Shown here one piece after another: positions 26,089 to 39,405 of a stretch of DNA of 64,000 bases. The notes beneath the pieces were generated by a model, which saw only the letters and a list, made by a program, of their open reading frames with translations, made no database searches and was not told the origin of the DNA. Source of the DNA: Lacrimispora celerecrescens (GTDB lineage Bacteria > Bacillota > Clostridia > Lachnospirales > Lachnospiraceae); contig NZ_JPME01000010.1 of NCBI RefSeq assembly GCF_000732605.1, forward strand, positions 248,036-312,035, read 5' to 3'. Both the position numbers and the translations under genes were made by a program. The number at the start of each line of letters is the position of its first letter. Position 1 is the first letter of the stretch.

Positions 26089-26502
26089 TCAGCACTGATC
26101 TCTAATATCAAAGCTTGGATTGAATGCATAGAAATTCCTGCTGTCCAGATTATCCTGGGTGATTCTTAAAGCTTCCCCAAACCTCTGGAAATGAACGATT
26201 TCACGTTCTCTTAAGAAGCGAATTGGATCACAAACTTCCGGATCCGTAATAACACGAAGAATGTTATCGTAAGTACTCCTTGCTTTCTGCTCTGCCGCCA
26301 TATCCTCTACTAGATCAGTAATCGGATCTCCCTTTGACTGGAATTGGTTGGCATTAAACGGAATACCCCCAGCAGACTGAGGCCAGATGCCTGTTGTATG
26401 GTCAATGTAATAAGGACCAAAACCTGATTCTACAACCTGCTCCGGCGTTAAGTTTCTTGTCAGCTGGTGAACAATGGTTGCTACGATCTCAAGGTGAGCT
26501 AG
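26089..26502 (-). pseudogene. cotJC: cotJC, C-terminal segment (third piece of a split gene)
   Basis: Encodes the last 137 residues of the CotJC manganese-catalase-like coat protein: LAHLEIVATIVHQLTRNLTP, FGPYYIDHTTGIWPQSAGG, DLVEDMAAEQKARSTYDNIL, FLREREIVHFQRFGEALRIT. The His of LAHLE, the Glu of AAEQKAR and the His of EIVHFQRF are metal ligands by homology. No start or ribosome site lies upstream; homology ends exactly at a GA dinucleotide (plus strand TC, 26504-26505), and the middle piece ends at the same dinucleotide at 32632-32633. It is labelled pseudogene only because it is not contiguous; I interpret it as a gene segment restored by excision of the 6.1 kb element. Confidence 0.92.
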
Positions 26503-26526
26503 CTCGTTGGTACTTAATAGGTATCA
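26500..26526. promoter_or_regulatory. element 2 attachment site, cotJC 3' side
   Basis: Core dinucleotide TC (minus strand GA) at 26504-26505. cotJC homology lies on the left, element arm GTACTTAATAGGTATC on the right at 26510-26525. Confidence 0.75.
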
Positions 26527-26607
26527 GTAATAAACATCGTTCCAGATAATTCCTTTTGACTTATCGAACATTTGTTCGTATACTTGTATCAGGAGGTGAT
26601 GGTAATT

Positions 26608-26790
26608 ATGGCAGGAATGTGCGGACTTGAGCCAGATATTAACAAATGTCCTAACTACAATGCAGATGCAATGACATGTGCTGCCACTAATAGAGCTTGC
26701 GGATTTTTTAGGGAATCAGTTGAGAGGAAAGAAGAAAAAACAGTATACACAAGAAAAGCAAGATGGTATGAGCAGTATTATAAGAGGTAG
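26608..26790 (+). CDS. small Cys-containing protein
   Basis: A 60-residue soluble protein: MAGMCGLEPDINKCPNYNAD, then AMTCAATNRACGFFRES, then a basic, aromatic tail TRKARWYEQYYKR. Four Cys with C-x8-C and C-x7-C type spacing could bind a metal. The start at 26608 has AGGAGGTG at ideal distance; the longer frame from 26572 does not. It is the gene nearest the left end of element 2 and is followed by its own terminator. No family recognised, though short proteins opening with this type of MCGLEPDINKCP motif are typical Clostridial hypotheticals. Confidence 0.65.
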   Translation: MAGMCGLEPDINKCPNYNADAMTCAATNRACGFFRESVERKEEKTVYTRKARWYEQYYKR

Positions 26791-26815
26791 GGTTTTAGAC
26801 GCCCTACCTCTTTTT
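26782..26815 (+). terminator. terminator of small Cys protein gene
   Basis: GAGGTAGGG-TTTTAGACG-CCCTACCTC followed by TTTTTC. Confidence 0.9.
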
Positions 26816-26855
26816 CGTAGAGTGACACTTGGTTCGAAATTGCTTTCCATTTTAA

Positions 26856-28520
26856 TCAAGAACTTAAAAGTATATTTAATAAATTTTGAATATCTAATCT
26901 TCCATATCCCCATATGTTATTTGGATAGGTTACATTTGGATCACGCAGAGCATTAAATGTTAATAGTCCTCTAATTTGATTCCCATTTAAATTAATATAA
27001 TTGATTTTAACACTAGCCCACTCCAAGGCTATAGCCATGGCCCCCGCTGCATATCCAACAGCTGCTCCGGTTCCGCTAATTACTCCATACTGGTCCTCTG
27101 GAACCGCACATGGGATCTGGTATCCAGGAGCCGCTATATCGGGCTTAATGACACGTAATCTAGTATAACCTCTTCCGGATTCAGTTAAAATGCTATTATT
27201 GATTTGATTATAGGCAGTAACGGTTAAGGGATCAACCGTATTTCCTGGTGCAGTTATAGTGGTATCCGGGTCTGCATCAAAGAAAAAGGTCTCATTCGTT
27301 ATAAGATTTCCAGAAGGTAACCACGCATGAAAAGAAAACGGTGTAGTTTCTACACCTAAAATACGAAAGTGCCATGTTCCCGGATAAGGATTTTTAAAAC
27401 GTATTAAAATTAATGGATTTCTGCTTCCACTTTGAAAAACAAAATTATTAACAAAGAGAATACTTTGGCTTTGCTCAAAAGTAATCTCATTACAAGCAAA
27501 TGAAGGATAAATACTGTTTGTAGATTCCCCCAAAGGTGATACAATCTCAATAGATAAGTTACTTGGCGCATAAGGCCAGATTTCCATAGAAAATAATTTG
27601 TCACTTTCCCCTACATTCAATTGAAAATCATGATAATATGGTTCGGAATAAGCATAGCCAAAGTAATGCCTTTCTTTATCTCCCTCATCTCCTGACGCAA
27701 TCGAAACTCCAATATTGGGCAATTCTGCAATACCGTTTAAATAAATACTGATAGCGCTAATTCCATCATGGCCGCCTTGATTACTCCCTAATGCAATGCA
27801 TATAACTAAAGGACGATTTAAGTTTTGAGATACAGTAATTAAATACCTTATTCCAAGTATTAAATCCGTCTCTTGAAAGCACAATGAATCATCCGGAACA
27901 AAAAATAACTGTTTAAGATTTTGTTTTGCTTCCTTAAGTTTTACAATCAAAAGTTCAGATTCTGGCACAATACCGCTAAAAGACTGATTTGGATCAGGAC
28001 TGCCGGCGATCATGCCTGCAATCGCTGTTCCTTGTCCGTTTGTATCAATGGATGGGACTATGGACAACGGATCCTTTAATGTCAATGCTTGATTAATCGT
28101 TTCTCTGGTATATTCACTGCCAAAAGTAAAACCTGCAGGAATCGTACCACTTTGTTCTGACTGATCCCATATAGAAATGATGCGTGTAGTCTTATCATTA
28201 TTAAGAAATGCTGGATGTTGATAATCAATCCCTGTGCCTAAAATGCCAATAATAATATCTTTGCCATGAAAAGTAGGTTCAGAATGAAACTGAAAGCTTT
28301 CATTGTTTGCTTTATTTCTATCAATTATCGCTATCGGAGTATATAACTCAGGTAAAGAATAATAAGGAATCTGGCTTGGGTCACAGATATTTATTTTAGA
28401 TGTGCTAACATGTAATATGTGATGTGTCTCATTCAAAGGGGTTACATCTTCATTGTAAACCTGGCCTATTGTATTTTCGACAATCAAGTCGTAATAATTA
28501 TTGTCCAAAACTTTCTCCAT
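26856..28520 (-). CDS. subtilisin-family (S8) pseudoprotease, Csp germination-protein-like
   Basis: A 554-residue protein with the layout of clostridial Csp germination subtilases: an N-terminal region, a subtilase domain with a jelly-roll insertion, and a C-terminal end GYGRLDIQNLL. All three catalytic positions are replaced. The Asp motif reads IIIGILGTGIDYQHP (family V-x-D-T/S-G; here Gly), the His motif reads TNGQGTAIAG (family GHGT; here Gln) and the Ser motif reads ISGTGAAVGYAAGA (family GTS; here Gly). The fold motifs around them are kept. In Clostridioides difficile, catalytically dead CspC and CspA act in bile-salt and co-germinant sensing, so a sensing role is an inference. No signal peptide. 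Its place inside element 2 is notable. Confidence 0.85.
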   Translation of the reverse strand: MEKVLDNNYYDLIVENTIGQVYNEDVTPLNETHHILHVSTSKINICDPSQIPYYSLPELYTPIAIIDRNKANNESFQFHSEPTFHGKDIIIGILGTGIDYQHPAFLNNDKTTRIISIWDQSEQSGTIPAGFTFGSEYTRETINQALTLKDPLSIVPSIDTNGQGTAIAGMIAGSPDPNQSFSGIVPESELLIVKLKEAKQNLKQLFFVPDDSLCFQETDLILGIRYLITVSQNLNRPLVICIALGSNQGGHDGISAISIYLNGIAELPNIGVSIASGDEGDKERHYFGYAYSEPYYHDFQLNVGESDKLFSMEIWPYAPSNLSIEIVSPLGESTNSIYPSFACNEITFEQSQSILFVNNFVFQSGSRNPLILIRFKNPYPGTWHFRILGVETTPFSFHAWLPSGNLITNETFFFDADPDTTITAPGNTVDPLTVTAYNQINNSILTESGRGYTRLRVIKPDIAAPGYQIPCAVPEDQYGVISGTGAAVGYAAGAMAIALEWASVKINYINLNGNQIRGLLTFNALRDPNVTYPNNIWGYGRLDIQNLLNILLSS

Positions 28521-28654
28521 AAATTACCACTTTCCTTATGAACAGTAGACATTTTTTTAATATTATGCAAAAAATAATATAGTTATGTGGATTGATTGGA
28601 ATTATACTTCCAAAGTCAGGACTGCGGAAGGGGATGGCCGCCTCTCTATGTTAT

Positions 28655-28870
28655 TTAATAAAGAAAATTACTTATTCCCATCACAATAATAAGCACTGCA
28701 GCTATTCCAATTATTATTCTAACTCCCTTACTCCCCCACTTACCTTCAATCCATTCATATAAACCAATTGACCTGCTCTTCCGATGTCGAGATAACCAAT
28801 CCCATTTAAATATATCCAGATACAATAATGTCCCAGCATAAATCACAGCAACTAATATAATCCAATCCAT
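28655..28870 (-). CDS. small two-helix membrane protein
   Basis: A 71-residue protein with an N-terminal membrane helix (MDWIILVAVIYAGTLLYLDI), a basic central loop (WLSRHRKSRSIGLYEWIEGK) and a second membrane helix (VRIIIGIAAVLIIVMGISNF). The start at 28870 has GGGAG six bases upstream; the upstream Met at 28891 has none. Short two-helix proteins like this are common in Firmicutes and I do not recognise a named family. Cargo of element 2. Confidence 0.6.
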   Translation of the reverse strand: MDWIILVAVIYAGTLLYLDIFKWDWLSRHRKSRSIGLYEWIEGKWGSKGVRIIIGIAAVLIIVMGISNFLY

Positions 28871-29016
28871 ACTTAACTCCCACCACCTCATTTTCTTTCC
28901 ATCATACTACAGCGCCTTCCAAAAAGAAAGAGACAGGGCGAGTCATGCTCCAATTCACAAATGCATGAAATTCCGCCGGCTGTCCCCCAAAAAAATGCTC
29001 GTGATATTCCAAACAA

Positions 29017-29454
29017 TTATTTAGTATTTACCATGCGCCTCTTTAAAGCAATAATCCCCAGAATAATACCTGACGACAGTGCAGACAGTCCAAACAAGTA
29101 GGCTAGCGGAATCAAGGCAAAAGGTTCTACCAGAAATCCTTCTGCAGTTACATAACTGCCGATTATATTATATGCCACCAGACACCCCACACTGGCAATA
29201 ATAGAAAAAAGTAATGTGCCGGTGAAAAAAGAAGACCATCTATCCTGTTTCCATTTCTTTGCAATATTATTCATAACTTTTACCTCCTCCGTATTTTTAA
29301 CCGCTTTTATCTCTATGTCAATCTGCTTCAATTCGTCACGGCACTTTCCACAGGTTAATAAATGCTCTTCGATTAATTTGCAGCTATCCTCACTGCATAC
29401 ATTATCATGATACAATGGGAGCAGGTCGTTTATTATTTCACATGTTATTCGCAT
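29017..29454 (-). CDS. anti-sigma factor with zinc-finger (zf-HC2) domain
   Basis: A 145-residue membrane anti-sigma factor. The N-terminus is a ZAS zinc finger: CEIINDLLPLYHDNVCSEDS, then IEEHLLTCGKCRDELKQ with the H-x3-C-x2-C core. Two membrane helices follow (FFTGTLLFSIIASVGCLVAY and LIPLAYLFGLSALSSGIILG) and a basic tail. Its ATG overlaps the end of the ECF sigma gene by 10 bases, the usual sigma/anti-sigma arrangement. It would hold the sigma factor at the membrane until a signal releases it. Cargo of element 2. Confidence 0.85.
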   Translation of the reverse strand: MRITCEIINDLLPLYHDNVCSEDSCKLIEEHLLTCGKCRDELKQIDIEIKAVKNTEEVKVMNNIAKKWKQDRWSSFFTGTLLFSIIASVGCLVAYNIIGSYVTAEGFLVEPFALIPLAYLFGLSALSSGIILGIIALKRRMVNTK

Positions 29455-29926
29455 TCCATTCTCTCCTTTAATTTCATTTTTGCTCGATGGTAAGTGACTC
29501 TCGCCCAGCTTTCTGTTTTTTCAAATAAGCTGCCGATCTGTGAAAAGGATAAATCTCCAAACACCCGCAGCATAAAAACTTCCTTATAGGGTTCATCTAA
29601 ACGATGGAGCTCTTTGTGTATGTTAAATACAGATTCTTTCGATAACAGGCTCTGCTCAATCGTTGACTCAACAAGAATATTTTCCGCCTCAGTCAAGTCC
29701 TCATGATACTTTTCTTTCATCCTGTATGTGAAGAATGTATTTTTTGCAATTTGACATAACCACACATAAAGTTTGCACTTTCCATCAAATTTATCGATAT
29801 TTTTAAAGCTTTAAAAAATGTCTCTTGTGTTATTTCTTCCGCAATCATTTCATCCCTACTTATTGACAAAACATATTTATAGACATCCCTAAAGTAAAGA
29901 CTGTATATTTCATTAAAGTCCGTCAC
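29445..29926 (-). pseudogene. ECF RNA polymerase sigma factor, single-base frameshift
   Basis: Region 2 lies in the first frame: MTDFNEIYSLYFRDVYKYVL, MIAEEITQETFFKALK. Linker and region 4 lie in the next frame: NIDKFDGKCKLYVWLCQIAK, KEVFMLRVFGDLSFSQIGSL, WARVTYHRAKMKLKERM. The slip is in a run of five A near 29808-29812; one extra A would give one uninterrupted protein of 160 residues. Either a recent mutation, phase variation by slippage, or a sequencing error. Overlaps the anti-sigma gene, with which it forms an operon. Confidence 0.85.
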
Positions 29927-30168
29927 TTTTTCACCTCGCTTTCATATATAAGACTACGGAAAATCGAATTCGTTACAATTTTTTCTAATTTTAGTATTTC
30001 TAATTAAATTTATCCTATATTCAGCTAGCTAGCAATATTAAATATTTGTTATTTTAATTTGTTCCCTAACTACTCATGCGTAATACAATTAACTGGCTTT
30101 AATTGGAACGCAATCACAGAATCAAATGATGAAACGAATGACATACTAAAAATAATAGGAGGTGAATT

Positions 30169-30322
30169 ATGAGCACAGATAATTCAAAAAAAAAGTACAA
30201 AGAATCATAAAAAGGAAGATGGTACCTTTCATTCAAAACATATCAACCATAATCCACAAGCTGAAAGCGCGCGGGCCGTGTTTGGATTAAAGGCAGATAA
30301 TTCGAAAGATAAAGAATCTTAG
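30169..30322 (+). pseudogene. small hydrophilic protein, frameshift in A9 run
   Basis: An ATG at 30169 behind AGGAGGTG opens MSTDNSKKK but stops after 13 codons. The other frame reads KEDGTFHSKHINHNPQAESA, then ARAVFGLKADNSKDKES, to 30322. Eight instead of nine A at 30186-30194 would give a 50-residue protein. The A run makes slippage or a base-calling error likely. Family unknown; lies directly before the HMA-like gene. Confidence 0.55.
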
Positions 30323-30351
30323 AATATATCACAAAAGAAAGGAGTTATCTT

Positions 30352-30573
30352 ATGAATAAAGTTCACTATGATATATCAGGCATACAGAATACGGAGATTA
30401 AAACTCAACTTAAAAATGCATTAGATAAGGTAGACGGAATCTCTACGGTTAATATTGATGCCACAAGAGGTTCAATTGAAGTTGGATACAATCAATCAAC
30501 AGACGAGAATTCTATTAAATCTTGTATCGAAAATGTTGGATGCAAGATACAGAACCAATCTAATGATTTCTAA
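30352..30573 (+). CDS. HMA-like small protein without CxxC
   Basis: A 73-residue protein with the ferredoxin-like fold pattern of heavy-metal-associated domains: VHYDISGIQNTEIKTQLKNA, LDKVDGISTVNIDATRGSIE, VGYNQSTDENSIKSCIENVG. The metal-binding CxxC that normally follows the first strand (GMxCxxC) is absent; here GIQNTEI. So it is unlikely to carry copper like CopZ. The start at 30352 has AAAGGAG upstream. A terminator follows. Cargo of element 2. Confidence 0.7.
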   Translation: MNKVHYDISGIQNTEIKTQLKNALDKVDGISTVNIDATRGSIEVGYNQSTDENSIKSCIENVGCKIQNQSNDF

Positions 30574-30604
30574 GAAAAACCTTGTCGAGAAAGTCATTAC
30601 TATA

Positions 30605-30640
30605 TAAGAGTAGGGGAAAACCCCCTATTCTTTCTTTTTA
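30605..30640 (+). terminator. terminator
   Basis: GAGTAGGGG-AAAA-CCCCCTATTC followed by TTTCTTTTT. Confidence 0.85.
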
Positions 30641-30662
30641 AGCTTGTCCAATGGCTCCGGCC

Positions 30663-30827
30663 TCAGCCGGTTTCTTCCTTTTGCTTCTTTTCCTTATCCC
30701 GATAAATACCAGCAGCAATTCGACCAATGTTATCCAGGATTTCCTGACGTTCCGCTGCTGTTCTTACAACGCAGTCATCATGGCCACGGACAATGGTATT
30801 TCCTATTTTCATTTCAAAAACTACCAT
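30663..30827 (-). CDS. 54-residue protein divergent from recombinase (candidate directionality factor)
   Basis: A short charged protein: MVVFEMKIGNTIVRGHDDCV, then VRTAAERQEILDNIGRIAAG and a basic tail YRDKEKKQKEETG. Start at 30827 after GGAGGTG. It lies divergently upstream of the serine recombinase gene, as does a similarly sized gene at 35920-36078 in element 1; the intergenic sequences of both pairs are clearly related. Small partner proteins of large serine recombinases (for example SprB with SprA in SP-beta) switch integration to excision and are about this size. That role is inferred from context only; an ER-x-x-I-x-x-I helix pattern is shared by the two. Confidence 0.6.
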   Translation of the reverse strand: MVVFEMKIGNTIVRGHDDCVVRTAAERQEILDNIGRIAAGIYRDKEKKQKEETG

Positions 30828-30840
30828 GCACGGCACCTCC

Positions 30841-31007
30841 CCTTCGCTTAAAGCTATGCAACATTGGTTGTACTTGTTGCGTACTTCTTTCCCCCCTCTC
30901 ATAATCCTTGCATGGTACCGCCTTATGCCAGGCGAATATCATTTTCGGAAAGGCAAGGGCGTATTTTTGTGCTCAAAATACAATAAACTGTATAAGGAGA
31001 TGATATA
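30841..31007 (+). promoter_or_regulatory. divergent promoter region of element 2 recombinase
   Basis: Shares blocks with 36090-36302 of element 1: TTGTACTTGTT, CATAATCCTTGCATGGT (there GATAATCTTTGCATGGT), CATTTTCGGAA and GGGCGTATTTTT. In the last block, GTATTTTT and AATACAATA at 30977-30985 are spaced as in mother-cell sigma-E promoters. RBS AAGGAGATGATATA precedes the ATG in both copies. Confidence 0.5.
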
Positions 31008-32600
31008 ATGTTAGATCTGTCAGGAACTTATTATATGTACCTCAGAAAATCCAGAGAAGACCGCGATGCAGAAGCTCATGGGGAAGGCGAAACCCTGTCC
31101 CGTCATGAAAACCGATTAAACGAACTTGCAGAGCAGTTAGGTATTACCATATCTCACGTTTATCGGGAAGTCGTATCTGGCGAAACCATTGCTGCCCGGC
31201 CAGAAATGATGCAGTTGATCTCTGACATAGAAAACAATCGTCCAGAGGGCGTACTTGTCATAGAGCTGGAGCGTCTGGCTCGTGGAGATACCAGAGATCA
31301 GGGCCTTATCATGGAAACATTTAAGTACGGCAATACAAAAATCATTACCCCCATGAAAACCTACGATCCCAACGATGAATTTGACGAAGAATATGCAGAA
31401 TTCGGCCTTTTTATGAGCCGGCGAGAATATAAAGTAATCAACCGCCGCCTGCAAAATGGACGACGTGCATCTGTGAAAGAGGGAAAATGGACCGGCAATG
31501 TTGCTCCTTATGGGTACGAGAGAATGAAGCTTCCTCATGAGAAGGGTTTCACCTTAAAGCCCCTTCCGGAGGAATCCAAAATTGTACAGTTTGTTTTTCA
31601 GTTGTTCACAACAGGAACCCCTGAATCGGATAACATCCCGCTTGGCACCACACAAATAGCCCATCTTCTTGATGATATGAAGATCCCCCCTCGTAAATCA
31701 GATCATTGGGAAACCAGTGTGATCAGGGGAATGTTACGAAACTACGCTTACATAGGGAAGCTGGAAACCGGAAAGCGCAAGCAGATCAAAATCATAGAAA
31801 ATGGTGTACCGAAACGGTCACGCCCAATCAATGCGGATTGTGAGATATTTGACGCTTTGCATCCTCCAATAATAGATGAAAGTGTTTTTTATTCCGCCCA
31901 AAAGAAACTGAAAGCTAATTTCAGGCCCCCTACCTTCTCCACAACCAAATCCCCTTTGGCCGGTCTGATCTATTGCAGTGAATGTAAAATGTCAATGTAT
32001 CGCCGTCCTCCAGGCTCTAAAAATCCTACGGAAACCATTTTGTGTAAAACTCATAACTGCCCTACCGTTGGTTCTTTTTATTATTTAGTTGAAGAGCGCC
32101 TATTACAGTTCTTGGAAAGATACTTGAGCGATTATAAGATCATAATACAAAATGAGGATACCGGGGATTGGACGGAAGTAATAGACAGGAAAATGTCAGT
32201 ATTAGCTGGGTATCAGAATGAAGCTTTTATCCTCGATAAACAGCTCGAGATGGTATATGACTATTTTGAACAGCAAGTTTATTCTTTGGATTTGTTCCGC
32301 AAGAGATGTGATGAGCTAACAAGGAAGATCGATGAAAACAATAAGCTTATGGAGACTATCCAGGGTGAAATCATTGAAATCAAGGAGCATATCGCAAAGA
32401 AGGAGGAATTTATCCCTTACTTTGAAGGAATATTAAGGTCGTACACAAAAACAGAAGATCCTCTTAAGAAAAATATTCTTCTCAAACAGGTGGTAGACCA
32501 TGTGTATTATACGAAAAATAAAAAAGGCAATCGCATGGGGCAGGGAAATGACCTATTTTCGCTGGATGTTTACTTAAAGCTTCCCTACAAGGATTTATAA
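31008..32600 (+). CDS. large serine recombinase of element 2
   Basis: A 530-residue site-specific recombinase. The N-terminal resolvase domain has the nucleophile in TYYMYLRKSREDRDAE (Ser15) and supporting Arg residues in ELERLARGDTRDQG. A recombinase domain follows (GNVAPYGYER, TSVIRGMLRNYAYIGKLETG). The zinc ribbon is LIYCSECKMSMYRRPP with a distal CKTHNC, then a long coiled-coil (residues about 400-480: EAFILDKQLEMVYDYFEQQV) and a C-terminal DNA-binding tail. This is the large serine integrase layout used by phages and by SpoIVCA. The stop is 12 bases from the element's attachment arm and about 30 from the cotJC middle piece. All catalytic residues appear intact. Confidence 0.93.
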   Translation: MLDLSGTYYMYLRKSREDRDAEAHGEGETLSRHENRLNELAEQLGITISHVYREVVSGETIAARPEMMQLISDIENNRPEGVLVIELERLARGDTRDQGLIMETFKYGNTKIITPMKTYDPNDEFDEEYAEFGLFMSRREYKVINRRLQNGRRASVKEGKWTGNVAPYGYERMKLPHEKGFTLKPLPEESKIVQFVFQLFTTGTPESDNIPLGTTQIAHLLDDMKIPPRKSDHWETSVIRGMLRNYAYIGKLETGKRKQIKIIENGVPKRSRPINADCEIFDALHPPIIDESVFYSAQKKLKANFRPPTFSTTKSPLAGLIYCSECKMSMYRRPPGSKNPTETILCKTHNCPTVGSFYYLVEERLLQFLERYLSDYKIIIQNEDTGDWTEVIDRKMSVLAGYQNEAFILDKQLEMVYDYFEQQVYSLDLFRKRCDELTRKIDENNKLMETIQGEIIEIKEHIAKKEEFIPYFEGILRSYTKTEDPLKKNILLKQVVDHVYYTKNKKGNRMGQGNDLFSLDVYLKLPYKDL

Positions 32601-32608
32601 GGCTTTTG

Positions 32609-32645
32609 ACGGATATCTGCTAAGTACAGATTCCTCTGTTCCAAT
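32609..32645. promoter_or_regulatory. element 2 attachment site, cotJC middle side
   Basis: Arm GATATCTGCTAAGTAC at 32612-32627, then four bases, core TC at 32632-32633, then cotJC coding sequence. Mirror image of the site at 26500-26526. Confidence 0.75.
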
Positions 32646-32727
32646 ATCTGTCAAAAGTCCTTTACATTCTTTATAAGGCATGGCATAGCGTTGGGAAAGA
32701 TAACGCATGGAAGCTCCCATTTCTCCA
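32631..32727 (-). pseudogene. cotJC: cotJC, middle segment (second piece of a split gene)
   Basis: A segment of about 97 bases lying alone between two recombinase elements. On the minus strand it reads GEMGASMRYLSQRYAMPYKE and then CKGLLTDIGTEE, which is residues 34-65 of CotJC. The Glu of GE and the last Glu are metal ligands by homology with manganese catalases. It has no start codon of its own. Upstream, cotJC homology extends through GGPD, where a GGGCCAGA core (32728-32735) is shared with the end of the N-terminal piece. Downstream it stops at the GA core shared with the C-terminal piece. Reading frame is intact, which is unlikely for a random leftover. Confidence 0.93.
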
Positions 32728-32753
32728 TCTGGCCCCCCGGATTTCTAAAACTC
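32724..32753. promoter_or_regulatory. element 1 attachment site, cotJC middle side
   Basis: Plus-strand core TCTGGCCC at 32728-32735 (minus GGGCCAGA), then element arm with TAAAACT at 32746-32752. Confidence 0.7.
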
Positions 32754-32906
32754 AGTATGCTAAATAAGCCCCTTTTCAGAGAATCGGGTGAGAATAGGAA
32801 GGAAAACGAATGGGAGTTATAAGACATGGCAAAATATGCCTGAATGACAGAACAAATATTTTCTCACTTCATATTATAATTTATAGTAAATAATTGGAGT
32901 CATGTT
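32754..32906. other. left end of element 1, no gene
   Basis: A/T-rich upstream region of the next gene; nothing else I can support. Confidence 0.3.
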
Positions 32907-33179
32907 ATGACAAATTATCCCCCACCTTTTGGAGCACCTACTACTCCTCCTCCAAGAGTTCCTCCCAGAAAACCAAGAAATTCATATATTATTGATTGTA
33001 TGTTCATGTGTACGTATGTATGGCCACGGATAGGTGATGAGTTTTGGTATTATCCAATTAGTGTACAATATGGTGCAGTGTTAGGATACCGCTGGACAGG
33101 AAGAAGATGGACTTTCTTTGGTTTTGATCCTGATTTGATTGATGAGGTGGCATGCGTGCCGTTACCTGCACTTTATTAG
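32907..33179 (+). CDS. small protein with Pro-rich N-terminus
   Basis: A 90-residue protein: MTNYPPPFGAPTTPPPRVPP, a basic stretch RKPRNSYII, then an aromatic-rich globular part DCMFMCTYVWPRIGDEFWYY, VLGYRWTGRRWTFFGFDPD, ending EVACVPLPALY. RBS TTGGAG before the ATG. There is no membrane segment. The Pro-rich start and Trp/Tyr-rich body resemble proteins embedded in spore or cell-envelope layers. No family recognised. Followed by a GC hairpin terminator. Cargo of element 1. Confidence 0.6.
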   Translation: MTNYPPPFGAPTTPPPRVPPRKPRNSYIIDCMFMCTYVWPRIGDEFWYYPISVQYGAVLGYRWTGRRWTFFGFDPDLIDEVACVPLPALY

Positions 33180-33230
33180 TTAATAACAGGAAAAAGGGAT
33201 ACCGTTACTATTACCTTTAACTTCTTGAAA

Positions 33231-33264
33231 TATGGCGGGCCCGGAATACAGGATGCCCGCCTTC
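33231..33264 (+). terminator. terminator of Pro-rich protein gene
   Basis: GGCGGGC-CCGGAATACAGGAT-GCCCGCC followed by TTCATC. Confidence 0.75.
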
Positions 33265-33396
33265 ATCATTGCTATCGATCGAAGTTGCCTTAGTCATTTC
33301 GTAAGGCTGTTGAGATACATATTATTTTTTATACTATGATGCTATAATATGTAAGCTTAACATACAATAGATTAATAAGATCATTTGAGGAAATCC

Positions 33397-34680
33397 ATGG
33401 TCATACATATTGTCCAACCCGGTGAAACAATCAATTCCATTTCAGAGTATTACAAAATCCCCGTTGACAGACTAATATTGGAAAACGGAATTACAAACCC
33501 TGGCAATTTAGCAGTAGGCCAAACAATTGTGATTGTTCAACCTGAAACACTCTATACCGTCCAGGCTGGTGATACTTTGGAGAGCATTGCAAAGCAGCAT
33601 GGTACTACACCTATGGAATTACTTAGAAACAATCCCTATCTCTCTGATAGAGAAAGTTTATACGTTGGTGAATCCATAGTCATTCGCTATCAAACAAATA
33701 AATCAAGAACGATTGCCACTAGTGGTTATATCTTTCCTTTTGTAGATAAATCTGTTTTTAAAAAAACACTTCCTTTTTTATCTTATCTGACCATATTTAA
33801 TTATAGGGCCACAAGTGAAGGAGAAATTATCTCCAGTGCTGACGACACTGAACTTATCCAGCTGGCTAAAACTTATGGTACTGCTCCCATGATGTTTGTT
33901 TCTACTATGACGGGAGAAGGAATAATTAGCCGTGAAGTCTCCTTTAAAATTTTAAGTGATCCTTCTGTGCAGGATCGCCTGATTGAAAATGCTCTTCAAA
34001 TACTGAAAACGAAAGGTTTTAATGGAATAAACATATATACCGAATCTATCAACTATGATAACTTAAATATCTTTGCAGAATTTCTAGAAAGAGCCGCTGC
34101 AAAATTTCATGCAGAAGGTTTCAGGGTACTAATTACCATAACGCCTGCTACAAATATTAATACCCCTAATATTAGTTTTGAAAAAATAGACTATTCAAAA
34201 TTAGTTGAGTTTGTAGATGGAATCTTACTTTCTTCTTATGATTGGGCAAGGACTTACAGCTATCCAAATGCAATTTTTCCGGTTAATGTCTTAAGAGAGT
34301 TGTTAGATTACATGGTTAGTATTATTCCCCCTGAAAAATTACTTCTAGGAGTTACTGCTTTAGGTTATGATTGGACACTTCCCTATGTTCCTGGTGCCAC
34401 AGAAGCAACTTTAATATCTTATAACAGTGCAGTACAAATCGCAGCGGAAAATAACATACCAATACAATTTAATGAGGCAGCACAGTCACCCTACTTCTAC
34501 TATATGGATGTTGATGGAAATCTACATGTAATATGGACTAAAGATGCAAGAAGCTTTGACGCAAGGGCTAGACTGGTAGAAGAATATGGTCTACAAGGAT
34601 TATCTTTTTGGACCGTTATGAAATTCGATGCACAAATGTGGTTTGTTATCAATACTCAATACTACATCCAGAAGTTTTAA
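33397..34680 (+). CDS. LysM-GH18 spore cortex/germination hydrolase-like protein, copy B
   Basis: A 427-residue paralogue of the protein at 4484-5767. Two LysM repeats (IVQPGETINSISEYYKIPVD, YTVQAGDTLESIAKQHGTTP) are followed by a YaaH/SleL-like GH18 domain (GFNGINIYTESINYDNLNIF, GILLSSYDWARTYSYPNAIF, EKLLLGVTALGYDWTLPYVP, AQSPYFYYMDVDGNLHVIW). ATG at 33397 follows TTGAGG, as in copy A; the TTG at 33385 is less likely. YaaH-type enzymes sit in the spore and act on cortex peptidoglycan. The catalytic DxxDxDxE strand is not canonical (GINIYTES), so activity is uncertain. Cargo of element 1 and so lost from the mother cell if excision occurs. Confidence 0.87.
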   Translation: MVIHIVQPGETINSISEYYKIPVDRLILENGITNPGNLAVGQTIVIVQPETLYTVQAGDTLESIAKQHGTTPMELLRNNPYLSDRESLYVGESIVIRYQTNKSRTIATSGYIFPFVDKSVFKKTLPFLSYLTIFNYRATSEGEIISSADDTELIQLAKTYGTAPMMFVSTMTGEGIISREVSFKILSDPSVQDRLIENALQILKTKGFNGINIYTESINYDNLNIFAEFLERAAAKFHAEGFRVLITITPATNINTPNISFEKIDYSKLVEFVDGILLSSYDWARTYSYPNAIFPVNVLRELLDYMVSIIPPEKLLLGVTALGYDWTLPYVPGATEATLISYNSAVQIAAENNIPIQFNEAAQSPYFYYMDVDGNLHVIWTKDARSFDARARLVEEYGLQGLSFWTVMKFDAQMWFVINTQYYIQKF

Positions 34681-34703
34681 GCGTCCATGCAAAGTACTTT
34701 TTA

Positions 34704-34738
34704 AAGGCGGGCCCGGAATGCGGAAAACCGCCTTTTTA
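34704..34738 (+). terminator. terminator of LysM-GH18 gene B
   Basis: AAAGGCGG-GCCCGGAATGCGGAAAA-CCGCCTTTTTAAT hairpin with T-tail. Confidence 0.85.
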
Positions 34739-34744
34739 ATTTAC

Positions 34745-34875
34745 TGTTTTTCAATCCCGGATACTGCAGCACCCCATCCTGATCCGGAGTGAGCGTGATC
34801 GGATCTGTTGCTATCTTGCCGCCCTCTTCTAGACAGGATATCATAGTATCCGTGCCGTATATCTGATTGCATATT
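34745..34875 (-). pseudogene. possible C-terminal gene fragment, unrecognised
   Basis: The minus strand is open as NQIYGTDTMISCLEEGG, then KIATDPITLTPDQDGVLQYP, then GLKNSKL. It reads like real protein but has no start and runs into the terminator of the LysM-GH18 gene. The rest of the gap 34681-35004 is A/T-rich upstream sequence of the next gene. Confidence 0.3.
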
Positions 34876-35004
34876 TATCAGCTTCAATCTATACTATATA
34901 GAATACAACCGTCTTCATTCTCTCCATGGTTTATCAAAACTTTCTGTAAATATTTTGAAAGAGTTGATACAGATAAACAATAATAGAATAAATCAGGGGG
35001 CCAT

Positions 35005-35880
35005 ATGAAAAACATAGTCAAATTTTTAGTAGTTTACGTAACATATTCAATAGTATTTATTCTTGTGAACGGTATGATGCCATACTCACAGGCGTTTATG
35101 GAAGCTAACACGCGTACGACGGCAGGGCCTTTGGATCTACTGTTTGTAGCGATTAGCTGCCTGTGGTTTAGCTCTACTATCTGCTATACTGTATCCCATA
35201 CAAAGTGGAAAGGCGTAAAACTAGCCCTCGGCGTAATCGCCGTGATTAGCCTGGTTCATCCGGTTTTGACTCAGAGTGAAACATTGTTCTTTGGGAGCGT
35301 GTTTGCGGTTATCTCCAAAAGCGATATTCTGTTGATTATGCTGGCAAGTATTTTACCGCTTTTAGCATCCGTTCCATTGGCTGTTAAAATGTGGAGTAAA
35401 GGAAAATCGTACGAACCCGTTTCTGTTATCCCTATCGATGTGAAGAAGCTCGCGATAAGCATTTCAATGGTCGGGTTTGCCTATATGATCGTATACTTTG
35501 TTTTCGGTTATTTTATCGCATGGAAATCGGAAGCCGTTCGGTTGTTTTACTCCGGCGCTACGCAGGACATAGGCTTTTGGGCTAAGCTCAAACAAAACTG
35601 GAGAGAGAATCCGGCCATCTACCCATTCCAATTTACAAGAGGCGTCCTGTTTGGGGTGGCTGCTTTGCTGCCGTTGTATATGGGTTGGAGTCGCCGGATA
35701 GAGTTTATCATTAATATCTGCCTGATATACCTATGTACGGCTATTGTGCTCATCATTCCGAACTTTCTTTTCCCTGATGCGGTCAGATGGGCGCATTTTA
35801 TCGAAATGTTTTTGTCTATGCTGCTTTTCGGTGTTCTGACAGGCTTGATAATGACCCGTGCATCGCAAAGGAAATCCTAA
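35005..35880 (+). CDS. multi-pass membrane protein of unknown function
   Basis: A 291-residue integral membrane protein with about seven or eight hydrophobic segments (for example VKFLVVYVTYSIVFILVNGM, ALGVIAVISLVHPVL, ILLIMLASILPLLASVPLAV, AISISMVGFAYMIVYFVFGY, GVLFGVAALLPLYMG, IEFIINICLIYLCTAIVLII, FLSMLLFGVLTGLIMT). A polar loop lies near residues 190-215 (WAKLKQNWRENPAIYPFQFT). The RBS is CAGGGGG. No transporter signature recognised. GC content is a little higher than its neighbours. Cargo of element 1. Confidence 0.6.
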   Translation: MKNIVKFLVVYVTYSIVFILVNGMMPYSQAFMEANTRTTAGPLDLLFVAISCLWFSSTICYTVSHTKWKGVKLALGVIAVISLVHPVLTQSETLFFGSVFAVISKSDILLIMLASILPLLASVPLAVKMWSKGKSYEPVSVIPIDVKKLAISISMVGFAYMIVYFVFGYFIAWKSEAVRLFYSGATQDIGFWAKLKQNWRENPAIYPFQFTRGVLFGVAALLPLYMGWSRRIEFIINICLIYLCTAIVLIIPNFLFPDAVRWAHFIEMFLSMLLFGVLTGLIMTRASQRKS

Positions 35881-35881
35881 T

Positions 35882-35911
35882 CTCTGGCCAGAGCTTTGGC
35901 TCTGGTCAATT
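35882..35911 (+). terminator. terminator of membrane protein gene
   Basis: CTGGCCAGAGC-TTTG-GCTCTGGTCA followed by ATTTT. Confidence 0.75.
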
Positions 35912-35919
35912 TTCCGGCC

Positions 35920-36078
35920 TCAGCCGGATGCATTCTTTCTTCTGTATCCAACTAATTCCATCATTTTGTCTTGAATCAAAATGCCAATTCTTTCACGTTC
36001 CTCAATAGGTAGAGAATCTATCAAAACATCCCTGCCATCAATCTCTATAAAGTTCTCAATAACTGGCTCTTTTTTCAT
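35920..36078 (-). CDS. 52-residue protein divergent from recombinase (candidate directionality factor)
   Basis: MKKEPVIENFIEIDGRDVLI, then DSLPIEERERIGILIQDKMM, then ELVGYRRKNASG. Start at 36078 after AGGGGTGATT. It is the positional partner of the 54-residue gene at 30663-30827: same divergent position before the recombinase, same size, related upstream DNA, and a CCGGCCTCAGCCGG palindrome after the stop. A short acidic start, an E-R-rich helix and a basic tail suggest a small DNA- or protein-binding protein. The role as excision partner of the recombinase is inferred. Confidence 0.6.
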   Translation of the reverse strand: MKKEPVIENFIEIDGRDVLIDSLPIEERERIGILIQDKMMELVGYRRKNASG

Positions 36079-36089
36079 ACAATCACCCC

Positions 36090-36302
36090 TTTCGGTAGAT
36101 TGTATGCAGAACTGTTTGTACTTGTTTCTGCTCTTTTCCGATAATCTTTGCATGGTTTCGTTCGCTGTTTCATGCGAGAAGGGGATTATCTCCAGAGCGC
36201 CTTTTCTTTCTGATCAATAGAATCAAATCATTTTCGGAACGTCCTGACAAGGGGCGTATTTTTTATACTCAAAAATCATATATTCAAACAGGAGATGATA
36301 TA
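36090..36302 (+). promoter_or_regulatory. divergent promoter region of element 1 recombinase
   Basis: Conserved blocks with 30841-31007. GTATTTTTT at 36256-36264 and CATATATT at 36277-36284 fit the -35 and -10 of sigma-E-type promoters for the recombinase. On the minus strand CATACAAT at 36099-36106 fits a sigma-E -10 for the small divergent gene. RBS CAGGAGATGATATA before the ATG. Confidence 0.5.
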
Positions 36303-37775
36303 ATGAAACCATTATCTAAATCACACCCTCTGGAGATCGGCGCCGCATATATTCGCGTAAGCACCGATGACCAGACAGAGCTATCCCCTGATGCTCAGGC
36401 CCGTGTCATCATGGATTCAGCCAAAGCGGACGGCTTTATAATCCCCAAAGAATTTATTTTTATTGAAAAAAAGGGGATCTCCGGGCGAAAGGCAGAAAAC
36501 CGACCCGAATTTCAGCGCATGATTGCCATTGCAAAATCCCAGAAGCCGGCCCCCTTTAGCCGTCTTTACTTATGGAAATTCTCACGGTTTGCCCGTAACC
36601 AGGAAGAAAGCACGTTTTATAAAGGCATTCTCCGGAAAAAATGCGGTATTGAAATTAAAAGTGTATCAGAGCCAATCATGGAAGGCATGTTCGGCAGGCT
36701 TATTGAAACCATCATTGAATGGTTTGATGAATACTATTCTATTAATCTTTCCGGGGAAGTTCTTCGTGGCATGACAGAAAAAGCCCTGCGTTCAGGCTAT
36801 CAGGCCACGCCCTGCCTGGGCTACTTAGCCGTTGGGGAAGGAAAGCCCTTCATCATAGATGAGAAGTACTACCCTGTTGTTGAATACATCTTCCAGGCAT
36901 ACTATTCTGGAAAGGATATGAACGCCATTGCAAGAGAGGCGAATCAATACGGCTTCCGCAGCCGCCGGAGCAACTTCTTTGACCGCCGGTCCATCTGCCG
37001 GATTCTCACCAACCGTTTCTACATAGGGGAGGTAAATTGGAATGGAATTACCTTTCAAGGGACTCATGAAACCCGTCCATCAGTCTGCAGTATTTTCCAC
37101 GATGTCCAAAAACGGATAGAATCAGAATACAGACCAGTAAACCGCAGGGACGTTTCTTCCACTTCCCACTGGCTTTCCGGACTTTTAAAATGCAGCACTT
37201 GTGGCGGCAGCCTGGGATTTAACCGCTCCAATGACCAGAAAAAGCGCCCCGATTTCTTCCAATGCTGGAAATATGCCAAAGGTATACACCCCGACTCCTG
37301 CAGCATATCTGCCCGTATTGCAGAAAAGGCAGTGCTTGATTCTCTGCAAAAAGTCATCTCAACCGAAGTTGTAGAATATGAATACATTCGTAAAACAGAT
37401 CAGGCGGTCAAGGGAGAAGAAATTGCCTTTCAGGAAACTATGGCCCGTATGGAAATCAAGGAGCGTCGTATCCGGGAAGCGTATGAAAACGAAATAGACA
37501 CCTTGGAAGAATACAAGCAAAATAAACTTCGTCTGAAGATGGAACGTGAGGAACTGGAAGTTAACTTTGCTCAAGTCCGTGAAAAGGCTGCAAGTGCACC
37601 GGAATCCGTTCCCGATAAGGCGGAACTACTCCGGCGGATTTCAGCGGTATATGAGATAGTTTCTAATCCAGATATTGATTACGAAACAAAAGGAAATGTG
37701 CTGAGAGGTGTTGTAAAAAAGATCGTTTTTGACCGGAAATCCAGCCTTTTTTCTTTTTATTACTATATATCATAA
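36303..37775 (+). CDS. large serine recombinase of element 1
   Basis: A 490-residue serine recombinase. Nucleophile in GAAYIRVSTDDQTELSP (Ser20), further catalytic residues in LYLWKFSRFARNQEES, then recombinase domain (PCLGYLAVGEGKPF, ICRILTNRFYIGEVNWNGIT). Zinc ribbon LKCSTCGGSLGF with distal CWKYAKGIHPDSC, coiled-coil segment about residues 375-430 (EIKERRIREAYENEIDTLEE) and C-terminal basic end. The stop codon overlaps the predicted attachment arm at 37775-37781. It is only distantly related to the element 2 recombinase, so the two elements should have separate site specificities. Confidence 0.93.
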   Translation: MKPLSKSHPLEIGAAYIRVSTDDQTELSPDAQARVIMDSAKADGFIIPKEFIFIEKKGISGRKAENRPEFQRMIAIAKSQKPAPFSRLYLWKFSRFARNQEESTFYKGILRKKCGIEIKSVSEPIMEGMFGRLIETIIEWFDEYYSINLSGEVLRGMTEKALRSGYQATPCLGYLAVGEGKPFIIDEKYYPVVEYIFQAYYSGKDMNAIAREANQYGFRSRRSNFFDRRSICRILTNRFYIGEVNWNGITFQGTHETRPSVCSIFHDVQKRIESEYRPVNRRDVSSTSHWLSGLLKCSTCGGSLGFNRSNDQKKRPDFFQCWKYAKGIHPDSCSISARIAEKAVLDSLQKVISTEVVEYEYIRKTDQAVKGEEIAFQETMARMEIKERRIREAYENEIDTLEEYKQNKLRLKMEREELEVNFAQVREKAASAPESVPDKAELLRRISAVYEIVSNPDIDYETKGNVLRGVVKKIVFDRKSSLFSFYYYIS

Positions 37776-37797
37776 GTTTTAACAGTCTGGCCCACCA
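37774..37797. promoter_or_regulatory. element 1 attachment site, cotJC 5' side
   Basis: Arm AGTTTTA at 37775-37781, core TCTGGCCC at 37786-37793, then cotJC coding sequence. Confidence 0.7.
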
Positions 37798-37883
37798 TAC
37801 TGACTAATAATAAAGGAAGCAATCTTAGGGTTGGGAGTCGTTATATTTACCGGATACTGTAATCTCTTTTCATACCTCCACAT
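37785..37883 (-). pseudogene. cotJC: cotJC, N-terminal segment (first piece of a split gene)
   Basis: Starts with ATG at 37883 that overlaps the cotJB stop by one base (TAATG), with GGAG upstream inside cotJB. It reads MWRYEKRLQYPVNITTPNPK and then IASFIISQYGGPD, the canonical CotJC N-terminus of 33 residues. The frame then enters element 1 and ends after one Cys codon. As it stands it can make only a 34-residue peptide. Joined to the middle and C-terminal pieces it gives about 202 residues, a normal CotJC length. Labelled pseudogene because of the interruption; I think it is a developmentally rebuilt gene. Confidence 0.93.
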
Positions 37884-38149
37884 TAGCCGCACACTCCTTC
37901 CCATGGCCATGGATCATTGATCCAGGTCCAGTAATTTTCATCCATTACTCCTTCAACCATCAGAGGGCCGCACTGCGCTTCATATGCCATCACTGCCTGC
38001 TGCCGCATACCCATTACATAAAAGAAATATTCTAAAGCATCCTGATCGTCTGGATGGGTGTCAAGATACAAAACCACATCATCCATTGCAAAGCTGGTTT
38101 CATACACCTGCTTTAACAGCATATCGCAATCAACATTATAGCCTATCAT
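37883..38149 (-). CDS. cotJB: spore coat protein CotJB
   Basis: An 88-residue inner coat protein: MIGYNVDCDMLLKQVYETSF, AMDDVVLYLDTHPDDQDALE, YFFYVMGMRQQAVMAYEAQC and the tail WTWINDPWPWEG. The signature LDTHP and the closing NDPWPWE are typical of CotJB. Start at 38149 overlaps the cotJA stop (ATGA). Known cotJ operons are cotJA-cotJB-cotJC, transcribed in the mother cell by sigma-E. Length is normal. Confidence 0.95.
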   Translation of the reverse strand: MIGYNVDCDMLLKQVYETSFAMDDVVLYLDTHPDDQDALEYFFYVMGMRQQAVMAYEAQCGPLMVEGVMDENYWTWINDPWPWEGVCG

Positions 38150-39405
38150 CACTGGCACCCCCCCATGATAAATGGTAAACTCAGGTCCGGGAAGATGGTT
38201 CCCATATTTATGGCCACATCTATCGGATATACTTCCTGCCAGCACTGCCATGGTACATACGCCATTCCAACTGGAAACATGTCGATATTTTCAGCAGGAG
38301 CTGGCATGGGTGCAGGCATTGCTGGAGCAGTGCCTGATGGCATTTCCGGACACCTTACAACAGCGGGGCTTGTTGCCATATTCGGGCATTTCATAGGTGC
38401 CATGGCTTCCTTCTCTTTTTCCGGGCATTTTACCGGCATGACGCATACTGGTATACATTTCTCTGGCATTATGTGGGCTGGCATCGTATGGGCTGGCATC
38501 GTATGGGCTGGCATCGTATGGGCTGGCATCGTATGGGCTGGCATCGTATGGGCTGGCATCTCCTTACATTTCTCCGGCATTGGGCAAATTGGCATCACTC
38601 TGCATTTCTCCGGCATACATTTCTCCGGCATCATACAACTAGGCATCTCCCTGCATTTTTCCGGCATGCATTTTTCCGGCATCATACAGCTTGGCATCTC
38701 CCTGCATTTCTCCGGCATGCATTTTTCTGGCATTGTGCGGGCTGGCATCACTCTGCATTTTTCCGGCATACATTTTTCCGGCATCATGCAGCTAGGCATC
38801 TCCCTGCATTTTTCCGGCATACATTTTTCCGGCATGCATTTTTCAGGCATCATACAGTTTGGCATCTCCCTGCATTTTTCCGGCATGCATTTTTCCGGCA
38901 TTGGACAGGCTGGCATCACTCTGCATTTTTCCGGCATGCATTTTTCAGGCATCATGCAGTTTGGCATCTCCCTGCATTTTTCAGGCATACATTTTTCTGG
39001 CATCGGGCAAGCTGGCATCACTCTGCATTTTTCCGGCATGCATTTTTCCGGCATTGTACGGGCTGGCATCTCCTCGCTCTTTTCCGGCATTGGGCATAAT
39101 AACATTGGCTGGCAATTCATTGGCATGGGTGCTGCCTTGGTTTCAGATTCACCTCTTGTTTCCGAACATCTTGGTCTTTTAGGTGGCATCCACGGGCCGG
39201 AACCTGCGGTCATATCCTGTTGTTTCATGAGTATGGGATCGGTCCCATTTTCTGCAGATTTTGCAGGACCCGAACCAAGCGGCATGTCAGGACGAATTAC
39301 CGTACCCGGACTTACAGACATATCTAGCCCCATGGCATATTCCCAGCCGGCCGAGCCTGTGCCGGTCATATATTCAGGATACCATTGATTCGTATAAGAA
39401 TCCAT
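38149..39405 (-). CDS. cotJA: CotJA-domain spore coat protein with very long MPEKC-repeat extension
   Basis: The C-terminal 60 or so residues (MFPVGMAYVPWQCWQEVYPI, GTIFPDLSLPF) are CotJA, which is normally about 80 residues long. Here the protein has 418 residues. An N-terminal 100 residues of mixed sequence is followed by about 200 residues of repeats: 21 exact MPEKC units, mostly in pairs separated by REMPSCM or RVMPACP, then five tandem MPAHT units. The repeats are rich in Met, Cys, Pro, Glu and Lys. RBS AAAGGAG precedes the ATG at 39405. Inference: a disulfide- or metal-cross-linked coat scaffold. The repeat DNA could vary in copy number. Confidence 0.9.
   Translation of the reverse strand: MDSYTNQWYPEYMTGTGSAGWEYAMGLDMSVSPGTVIRPDMPLGSGPAKSAENGTDPILMKQQDMTAGSGPWMPPKRPRCSETRGESETKAAPMPMNCQPMLLCPMPEKSEEMPARTMPEKCMPEKCRVMPACPMPEKCMPEKCREMPNCMMPEKCMPEKCRVMPACPMPEKCMPEKCREMPNCMMPEKCMPEKCMPEKCREMPSCMMPEKCMPEKCRVMPARTMPEKCMPEKCREMPSCMMPEKCMPEKCREMPSCMMPEKCMPEKCRVMPICPMPEKCKEMPAHTMPAHTMPAHTMPAHTMPAHTMPAHIMPEKCIPVCVMPVKCPEKEKEAMAPMKCPNMATSPAVVRCPEMPSGTAPAMPAPMPAPAENIDMFPVGMAYVPWQCWQEVYPIDVAINMGTIFPDLSLPFIMGGCQ

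Follow-up and report, generated by a model that had tools for sequence, protein, structure and literature searches.

Two serine-recombinase elements split the spore-coat gene cotJC of Lacrimispora celerecrescens and probably excise in the mother cell

Background

Among Bacilli and Clostridia, a few are so far known to excise single elements from sporulation genes in a programmed manner. Here we discuss cotJC, a spore-coat gene of Lacrimispora celerecrescens that is divided into three pieces by two elements, each with its own large serine recombinase. The gene lies within a stretch of 64,000 nucleotides (contig NZ_JPME01000010.1, positions 248,036 to 312,035), which we refer to as the window and from whose first letter all coordinates are counted. 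The genome is of 5.0 Mb and belongs to the genus Lacrimispora in the family Lachnospiraceae.

Among the closest described systems is skin, in the sigK genes of B. subtilis and C. difficile. In the extracts available, it is given as a phage-derived element in a mother-cell gene, with a large serine recombinase and a small recombination directionality factor (RDF), and its precise excision restores the reading frame (PMC5025042, PMC6957869). In C. difficile the integrase is said in the same extracts to be constitutive, and the 72-residue RDF to be under the control of sigmaE and SpoIIID (PMC5025042). The second case is SP-beta in spsM, with the pair SprA/SprB, which is described there as an active phage whose excision rebuilds a spore-envelope gene, the RDF gene sprB having a mother-cell promoter of the sigmaE/K type (PMC6957869). 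Other gene-intervening elements in genes of spore formers include gin in gerE, vfbin in spoVFB, the prophages inserted in kamA, and yin in yabG, again from partial texts (PMC5595907, PMC10747680, PMC6957869). A search of the open-access literature, with few subscription journals and no preprints covered, found no paper on an interrupted cotJC.

Structure of the cotJC locus

In the window cotJC is on the minus strand behind cotJA (38149..39405, minus strand; Pfam CotJA 2.2e-14) and cotJB (37883..38251, minus strand; Pfam CotJB 1.8e-28), the latter directly upstream of it in the operon. By tblastn and reading of the sequence we found the gene in three in-frame pieces of 98, 96 and 415 nt, the last figure including the stop codon. 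Piece 1 (37786..37883) has its ATG start at 37883 and comprises codons 1-32 and two bases of codon 33, piece 2 is at 32632..32727, and piece 3, with the stop codon, is at 26089..26503. Element 1 (32728..37785, 5,058 bp) separates the first two pieces at what we call site 1, and element 2 (26504..32631, 6,128 bp) separates the second and third at site 2, both elements sitting within the coding region of a sporulation gene. A first-pass annotation of this DNA had proposed three minus-strand pieces parted by elements of these sizes, with an intact large serine recombinase in each gap, and we confirm this. When the pieces are put together at their shared cores they encode, in one frame, a CotJC of 202 residues, 196 of them identical to the uninterrupted allele of a sister species (G019). 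An uninterrupted form, which the first-pass annotation had proposed to look for in close relatives, does exist.

The repeat shared by the ends of element 1 is GGGCCAGA (8 bp), which is the attL core at the end of piece 1 (37786..37793, minus strand) and the attR core on the element side of piece 2 (32728..32735, minus strand). In the case of element 2 the ends share GA, and these 2 bp are weak evidence when taken alone; the placing is backed by a longer core, GAACTGGC, at the same position in a relative (G004). The predicted attP of element 2 is symmetric, with 16 of 24 arm positions complementary. In a run of 30 loci, in-frame joins were obtained at 24 junctions in 23 of the loci, these being weak where the core is of 2-4 bp, as the script took the best of many cuts. 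That run returned no join for L045, L047, L052, L053, L054, L105, L185 and site 2 of the window.

We think it likely that these are two phage-derived elements that excise in the mother cell, rejoining cotJC for use in the coat. Two temperate phages with distantly related serine integrases would have entered cotJC, each at its own attB, and would then have shrunk to 5.1 and 6.1 kb, keeping their attachment sites, the integrase and a small directionality factor. The sporulating mother cell would make both small factors, each of which would redirect the integrase of its element towards recombination of attL with attR. The two elements would leave as circles, and the rejoined cotJC would be expressed with cotJA and cotJB, its manganese (Mn) catalase product entering the coat. 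The forespore chromosome would keep both elements, and for that reason the split would be inherited. Activity of both integrases in the window strain, a phage origin of element 2 by the same route as element 1, and a timing of excision specific to the mother cell are inferred. Precise excision by two serine recombinases, as originally suggested, fits the purifying selection on pieces and recombinases, the G019 allele, a phage contig bearing an attP and a circle junction in a relative, all of which are discussed below.

Integrases, small ORFs and phage relatives

The recombinase of element 1, R1 (36303..37775, plus strand, 490 residues), ends 10 bp from attL. That of element 2, R2 (31008..32600, plus strand, 530 residues), is a relative of the SP-beta integrase YokA, which we take to be SprA. 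Both genes are open, with matches to the Resolvase, Recombinase and zinc-ribbon families (in R2 the last of these falls below the Pfam cut-off), and both proteins match the phrog_95 integrases of PHROGs. The relationship of R2 to YokA was seen with PDB entry 9dxh (E 2.8e-44).

Close relatives of both proteins are found in IMG/VR, at 92-95% identity for R1 and up to 95% for R2. Among the named phages of INPHARED there are relatives of R1 in 112 records and of R2 in 298, all below 60% identity, the best among the matches listed being about 37% (R1) and 43% (R2). The most informative sequence is contig L148 (G332) of 42,860 bp, which has R1 at 95% together with portal, major head, head protease, tape measure, endolysin and repressor-like proteins. 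Counted by eye, 55 of 60 bases of its attP match the circle junction predicted for element 1, with no gap. Contig L153 (G337) has R2 at 95%, piece 2 at 100%, and an s1 homologue (see below) at 96% that lies about 38 kb beyond piece 2, so that element 1 there looks prophage-sized. Contig L139 shares with the window piece 1 (100%) and 284 bp of flanking operon sequence (99.6%), but within the element alignment is confined to the R1 end; it is probably another strain of the window species with a different prophage at site 1. The window elements are not themselves intact temperate phages at 5.1 and 6.1 kb: no phage structural, packaging or lysis genes were found among the ORFs (open reading frames) searched in either element, some small ORFs being outside the search, whereas structural and lysis genes are present in the 42.9-kb relative.

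A joined pair of element ends is also present in G018, where two identical copies of that genome's own 3.25-kb element lie head to tail with an exact attP between them. The duplicated piece 1 in G018 adjoins a single N and looks like a scaffolding artefact, and only the element-element junction was used.

R1 and R2 each face a divergent small ORF, s1 (35920..36078, minus strand, 52 residues) and s2 (30663..30827, minus strand, 54 residues), and these are candidate directionality factors, presumably of R1 and R2 respectively. Both window elements have kept an integrase and a small ORF of about 53 residues, and a small ORF of 50-59 residues is present in all 15 of the Lacrimispora R1 elements examined. 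Homologues of s1 were found in the 14 other Lacrimispora elements and in phage contigs; in the phage relatives the small ORF (92% residue identity for s1, including that of L148, and 85% for s2) stands apart from the integrase. Neither s1 nor s2 has a family in NCBIfam, Pfam or PHROGs. The predicted fold of s1 is a beta-hairpin and a helix (predicted local distance difference test score 88.5), with no solved relative, and for s2 no solved chain, not even the YotN fusion 9dxd, shows detectable similarity.

Ahead of s1 there is a promoter-like box, ACAAGTACAA-N9-CATACAAT (36099..36125, minus strand), and ahead of s2 there is ACAAGTACAA-N9-CATAGCTT (30851..30877, minus strand). The box in the form AACA-N16-CATANNNT, with a constant GTACAA block, is found in 16 of the 16 Lacrimispora small-ORF upstream regions listed, that of s2 in the window included. 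In the window genome the pattern occurs twice, at s1 and s2 only, and the reversed control gave 0. The consensus for mother-cell promoters is AC-16-CATANNNTA for sigmaK and CATACAAT for sigmaE. The small-ORF box resembles such promoters, a sigma factor being assignable by likeness to the consensus only. The AACAAG part of the box also resembles the SpoIIID box of C. difficile, given in the available extract as KRTAACARK (PMC5025042).

The genus was sampled with 25 genomes, including that of the window. cotJC is uninterrupted in four (G002, G009, G019 and G020), split at site 1 only in 12, at site 2 only in G005, and at both sites in G000, G004 and G014. There is an apparent site 1 split, interrupted by contig ends, in G001 and G015, and the family scan found no copy of this cotJC paralogue in G013 or G016. 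Pieces 1 and 2 are parted at the same site 1 on one contig in 15 of the 25, window included. The site 1 elements of the genus have relatives of R1 (54-61% to window R1), and the site 2 elements of G004, G005 and G014 have relatives of R2 (78-90%), element 2 of G004 being about 41 kb. G006 is unclear in this count and was set aside as evidence of rejoining: in its contig C127 piece 1 is followed by piece 2 with an extra C that upsets the frame, the contig end appears rich in errors, and only two distant recombinases (31%) were found in that genome.

A tree built from 38 R1-type proteins unites those of the 14 other Lacrimispora elements in a single clade (100/100) and places window R1 with phage contigs L148 and L139 (100/100), near G143 of another genus. 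Seven elements of the 14-member clade are of 2,470-2,809 bp, and the single clade and small size together indicate a long descent in which little besides an integrase and a small ORF was retained. So at site 1 the genus appears to have one old element, mostly kept vertically, and the window lineage to have got its own more recent one. In the pair G022 and G023 (L053, L052) the proportions of synonymous (pS) and non-synonymous (pN) differences in R1 are both 0.00, while cotJC differs (pS 0.07); the identical R1 is best read as a recent transfer of the element between species.

These small elements are a difficulty for the most serious alternative, that excision is by prophage induction or at random in vegetative cells, with cotJC restored only in that subpopulation and with no developmental timing. 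At about 2.5-2.8 kb they are too small for phage, and yet they keep an integrase under purifying selection over long vertical descent. Phage relatives do exist, the box is present also in elements outside known sporulation genes, and yin of C. botulinum is reported, in the text available, to be excised at all time points (PMC10747680), all of which this alternative would accommodate. However, the gene that is repeatedly hit is a spore-coat gene and the box ahead of the small ORF resembles mother-cell promoters, and we regard excision without developmental timing as unlikely.

Selection on the split gene

We estimated the ratio of non-synonymous to synonymous change (dN/dS) by the Nei-Gojobori method, pooling pairs that are not independent. 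For pieces 1, 2 and 3 it was 0.036, 0.054 and 0.040 in 15 site-1-split genomes and 0.041, 0.036 and 0.039 in the four uninterrupted genomes, and there were no stops or frameshifts in the cotJC pieces of the 16 split genomes checked. In 22 pairs with R1 at least 74% identical, the ratio was 0.114 for R1, 0.040 for cotJC and 0.347 for the small ORF, the pooled silent differences being 0.45 for R1 and 0.32 for cotJC. Because the split pieces have a ratio of about 0.04, as in uninterrupted alleles, and the recombinases are conserved (0.11), the split cotJC is, on these ratios, not decaying. Frame-breaking changes in split relatives, which the first-pass annotation would have counted against excision, were not found, all pieces being in frame, though G001 and G002 hold extra degenerate second copies. 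G002 (L058) has an intact cotJC and then a decaying second attR and piece 2, and G001 (L056) has a second, damaged piece 3 behind a site 2 att remnant; these extra copies are traces of past insertions or gene replacement.

The whole-genome scan gave the three PF05067 pieces and one intact paralogue (C8, a Mn catalase) on another contig, with 62-81% residue identity to the three split stretches. With such a paralogue present the split cotJC might be a dispensable relic that serves as a phage landing site, the paralogue doing the work. That cotCB and cotD insertion mutants of C. difficile have reduced catalase and no significant coat defect (quoted in PMC11222575, seen in extract) would be in keeping with this, as would the degenerate copies in G001 and G002. 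But a relic would not be expected to show the same dN/dS as uninterrupted alleles with no stops or frameshifts, and 45 of the 57 genera with a split gene (see below) have no full-length family member in the genome scan, and we consider this explanation very improbable. It had been foreseen that a second intact cotJC, with this one decaying, would undermine the case for excision: the second Mn catalase gene is there, but the window copy is not in decay.

Insertion sites

Site 1 is QYGGPD-GE and site 2 is IGTE-ELAH, both of them conserved coding stretches. By alignment to the L. plantarum catalase 1jku, site 1 precedes Glu35 by two codons, site 2 is inside the Glu65 codon (Glu66 of 1jku), and a third site, used in other genera, is in the Glu136 codon (Glu148 of 1jku). 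We take the glutamates aligned at the three sites to be Mn ligands. Among 49 natural proteins the two most conserved 9-residue segments are SQYGGPDGE and LTDIGTEEL, and the segment centred on Glu136 ranks 23 of 202. Integrases with a preference for conserved coding DNA would come to rest at such positions, and a single cotJC fragment cannot retain the whole active site. The idea that the pieces act as separate polypeptides, or are joined at the RNA or protein level, can be given almost no credence, as we found no support for it, apart from an internal ATG frame of 70 residues in piece 3, and piece 2 is of 96 nt with no start of its own, the splits part codons aligned with the presumed ligands, and recombinases adjoin the splits in the window and in many relatives.

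Distribution in the Lachnospirales

The family scan covered 299 Lachnospiraceae genomes, one per genus and the window's included, of which 184 had a PF05067 match. In 57 of the 298 other genera cotJC is tiled across a split, and the breaks fall at three fixed sites. The gene is broken at site 1 alone in 18 of these genera, at site 2 alone in 23 and at site 3 alone in 9, and it is broken twice in the rest, at sites 1 and 2 in 4, at sites 1 and 3 in 2, and at sites 2 and 3 in 1. The count leaves out full-length matches, weak matches of other ranges (e.g. 11-84, 118-226) and two rows for G119, and a further 19 genomes with unpaired partial matches are outside it. Of the 64 junctions 37 are linked, that is, on one contig and the same strand in the right order, with gaps of 2.4-87 kb, and the others have pieces on different contigs or out of that order. 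G277, of another genus, has the same plan as the window: piece 1, R1, s1, piece 2, R2, s2, piece 3. Of 80 named loci, 50 are uninterrupted, 15 have a break at site 1, 13 have one at site 2 and 2 are at contig ends; L076 was ruled out as a site 1 case, being uninterrupted with a GTG start. Of 30 named loci searched for a relative of R1 or R2, 17 have such a recombinase and the other 13 have none in the DNA examined.

An order-wide scan of 146 genomes gave 80 with a match, 73 of them outside the window's family, and 26 of the 73 have a tiled split (the count is for rows outside the family only, with 8 genomes unpaired). Three genomes outside the family have cotJC in four pieces. In G360 and G433 there are recombinases beside the pieces, or within 2 kb of them, at all three sites; the case of G407 is uncertain, with two pieces beginning at contig starts. 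The hint in the first-pass annotation that two elements in one cotJC might be unique therefore has to be dropped, as the gene is interrupted twice in other genera too, and three times in families of the order other than that of the window.

It is true that some relatives are in many contigs and that G018 has a single N beside duplicated copies, but an assembly or scaffolding artefact has a negligible chance of being the explanation, given the same structure in the single-contig genomes G007, G008, G017 and G023, the fixed sites in dozens of genera, and a control scan of spoIVA (PF09547) with more than one match in at most 3 of the 194 genomes having a match.

On balance we favour the view that in the Lachnospirales cotJC is a communal phage-occupied assembly gene, with three fixed sites at or beside codons that align with Mn-ligand glutamates. 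Independent serine-integrase elements would occupy these singly, in pairs or all three together, with up to three excisions per mother cell for one coat enzyme, and some of the phages would have been reduced by their hosts to selected minimal cassettes of an integrase and a factor of about 53 residues (2.5-2.8 kb).

Other genes and elements

With regard to cargo, element 1 has a gene for a protein with LysM and glycosyl hydrolase 18 domains (33385..34680, plus strand) and a 291-residue ORF with no NCBIfam or Pfam match (35005..35880, plus strand). Element 2 has a subtilase gene like those of the germination proteins CspC/CspBA (26856..28520, minus strand), below curated cut-offs. The cargo of both elements looks spore- or cell-wall-related on account of these LysM-glycosyl hydrolase and subtilase genes. 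Element 2 also has, at 29445-29926, a sigma factor split over two overlapping frames (region 2 below cut-off, region 4 separate) beside a zf-HC2 gene, and at 30352-30573 a CopZ-like metal chaperone ORF of 73 residues, below curated cut-offs. A small Lacrimispora element (L049) carries a PdaC/DUF3298 protein, and the CotJA of the window has a long extension of MPEKC-type repeats on its N-terminal side.

The promoter-like box was also met at other loci, where gene names are presumptive, having been assigned by reading. In G002 and G018 (L198, L200) what we take to be feoB is seemingly interrupted by another serine-recombinase element with a ACAAGTACAA...CATA box. Further elements with the same box have R2-like recombinases (L199 in G007 and L201 in G018, 49-50%) or an R1-like one (L202 in G020, 43%).

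Discussion

Several observations weigh against developmental excision of both elements. The first-pass annotation had suggested a search for circular forms, and joined element ends were indeed seen in the phage relative L148, for element 1, and in G018, for its own element, but for the two window elements neither a rejoined nor a circular form turned up in the sequences examined. An attP for element 2 was not found: a pattern search of IMG/VR gave 0 matches, and a relaxed pattern gave at least 120 chance-like stretches, of which 80 were examined and none had an R1 or R2 relative. With regard to the candidate directionality factors, s1 and s2 showed no similarity to any solved one in sequence and fold searches (best PDB E 0.9, best viral E 0.038), and s1 evolves faster, with dN/dS of 0.35. 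At three more distant candidates (G188, G295 and G308) the box cannot be clearly made out, and it is present at elements in or near genes not known for sporulation, such as the presumed feoB. The window genome has an intact paralogue. Finally, window R1 is close to phage contigs, and element 1 may thus be recent, in which case the selection seen between species may partly predate it.

Across the Lachnospirales, an order common in animal guts, elements have entered the same short gene time and again at three sites, and it is carried in two, three or four pieces. Gene callers will overlook cotJC in a considerable proportion of these genomes. The relatives show everything between a phage and a stripped-down excision cassette, and this makes two questions testable, how a parasite becomes a developmental switch of its host and why a spore-coat gene attracts such elements. 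The loci also provide new pairs of integrase and att sites with candidate directionality factors.

Comparison with known systems

Phage phi027 of C. difficile R20291 has an attR adjoining a CotJC homologue, CDR20291_1465, and cotJC-like genes outside the Lachnospirales may thus be phage landing sites too. However, that homologue is described, in the parts of the account available, as the adjacent downstream gene and not as interrupted and rejoined (PMC11222575). In the case of gin, vfbin, the kamA prophages and yin, the extracts of the published accounts do not name cotJC among the split genes and describe none with two or three elements per gene. SP-beta, whose integrase is a relative of R2, differs in being a single element and a full-length phage. 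Skin differs in its target, sigK, in there being one element per gene, and in that its excision has been proven, whereas the window elements are known from sequence. To judge from the sequences, then, the window system is one of developmental excision of a known type in a new target gene, involving two elements here and up to three elsewhere.

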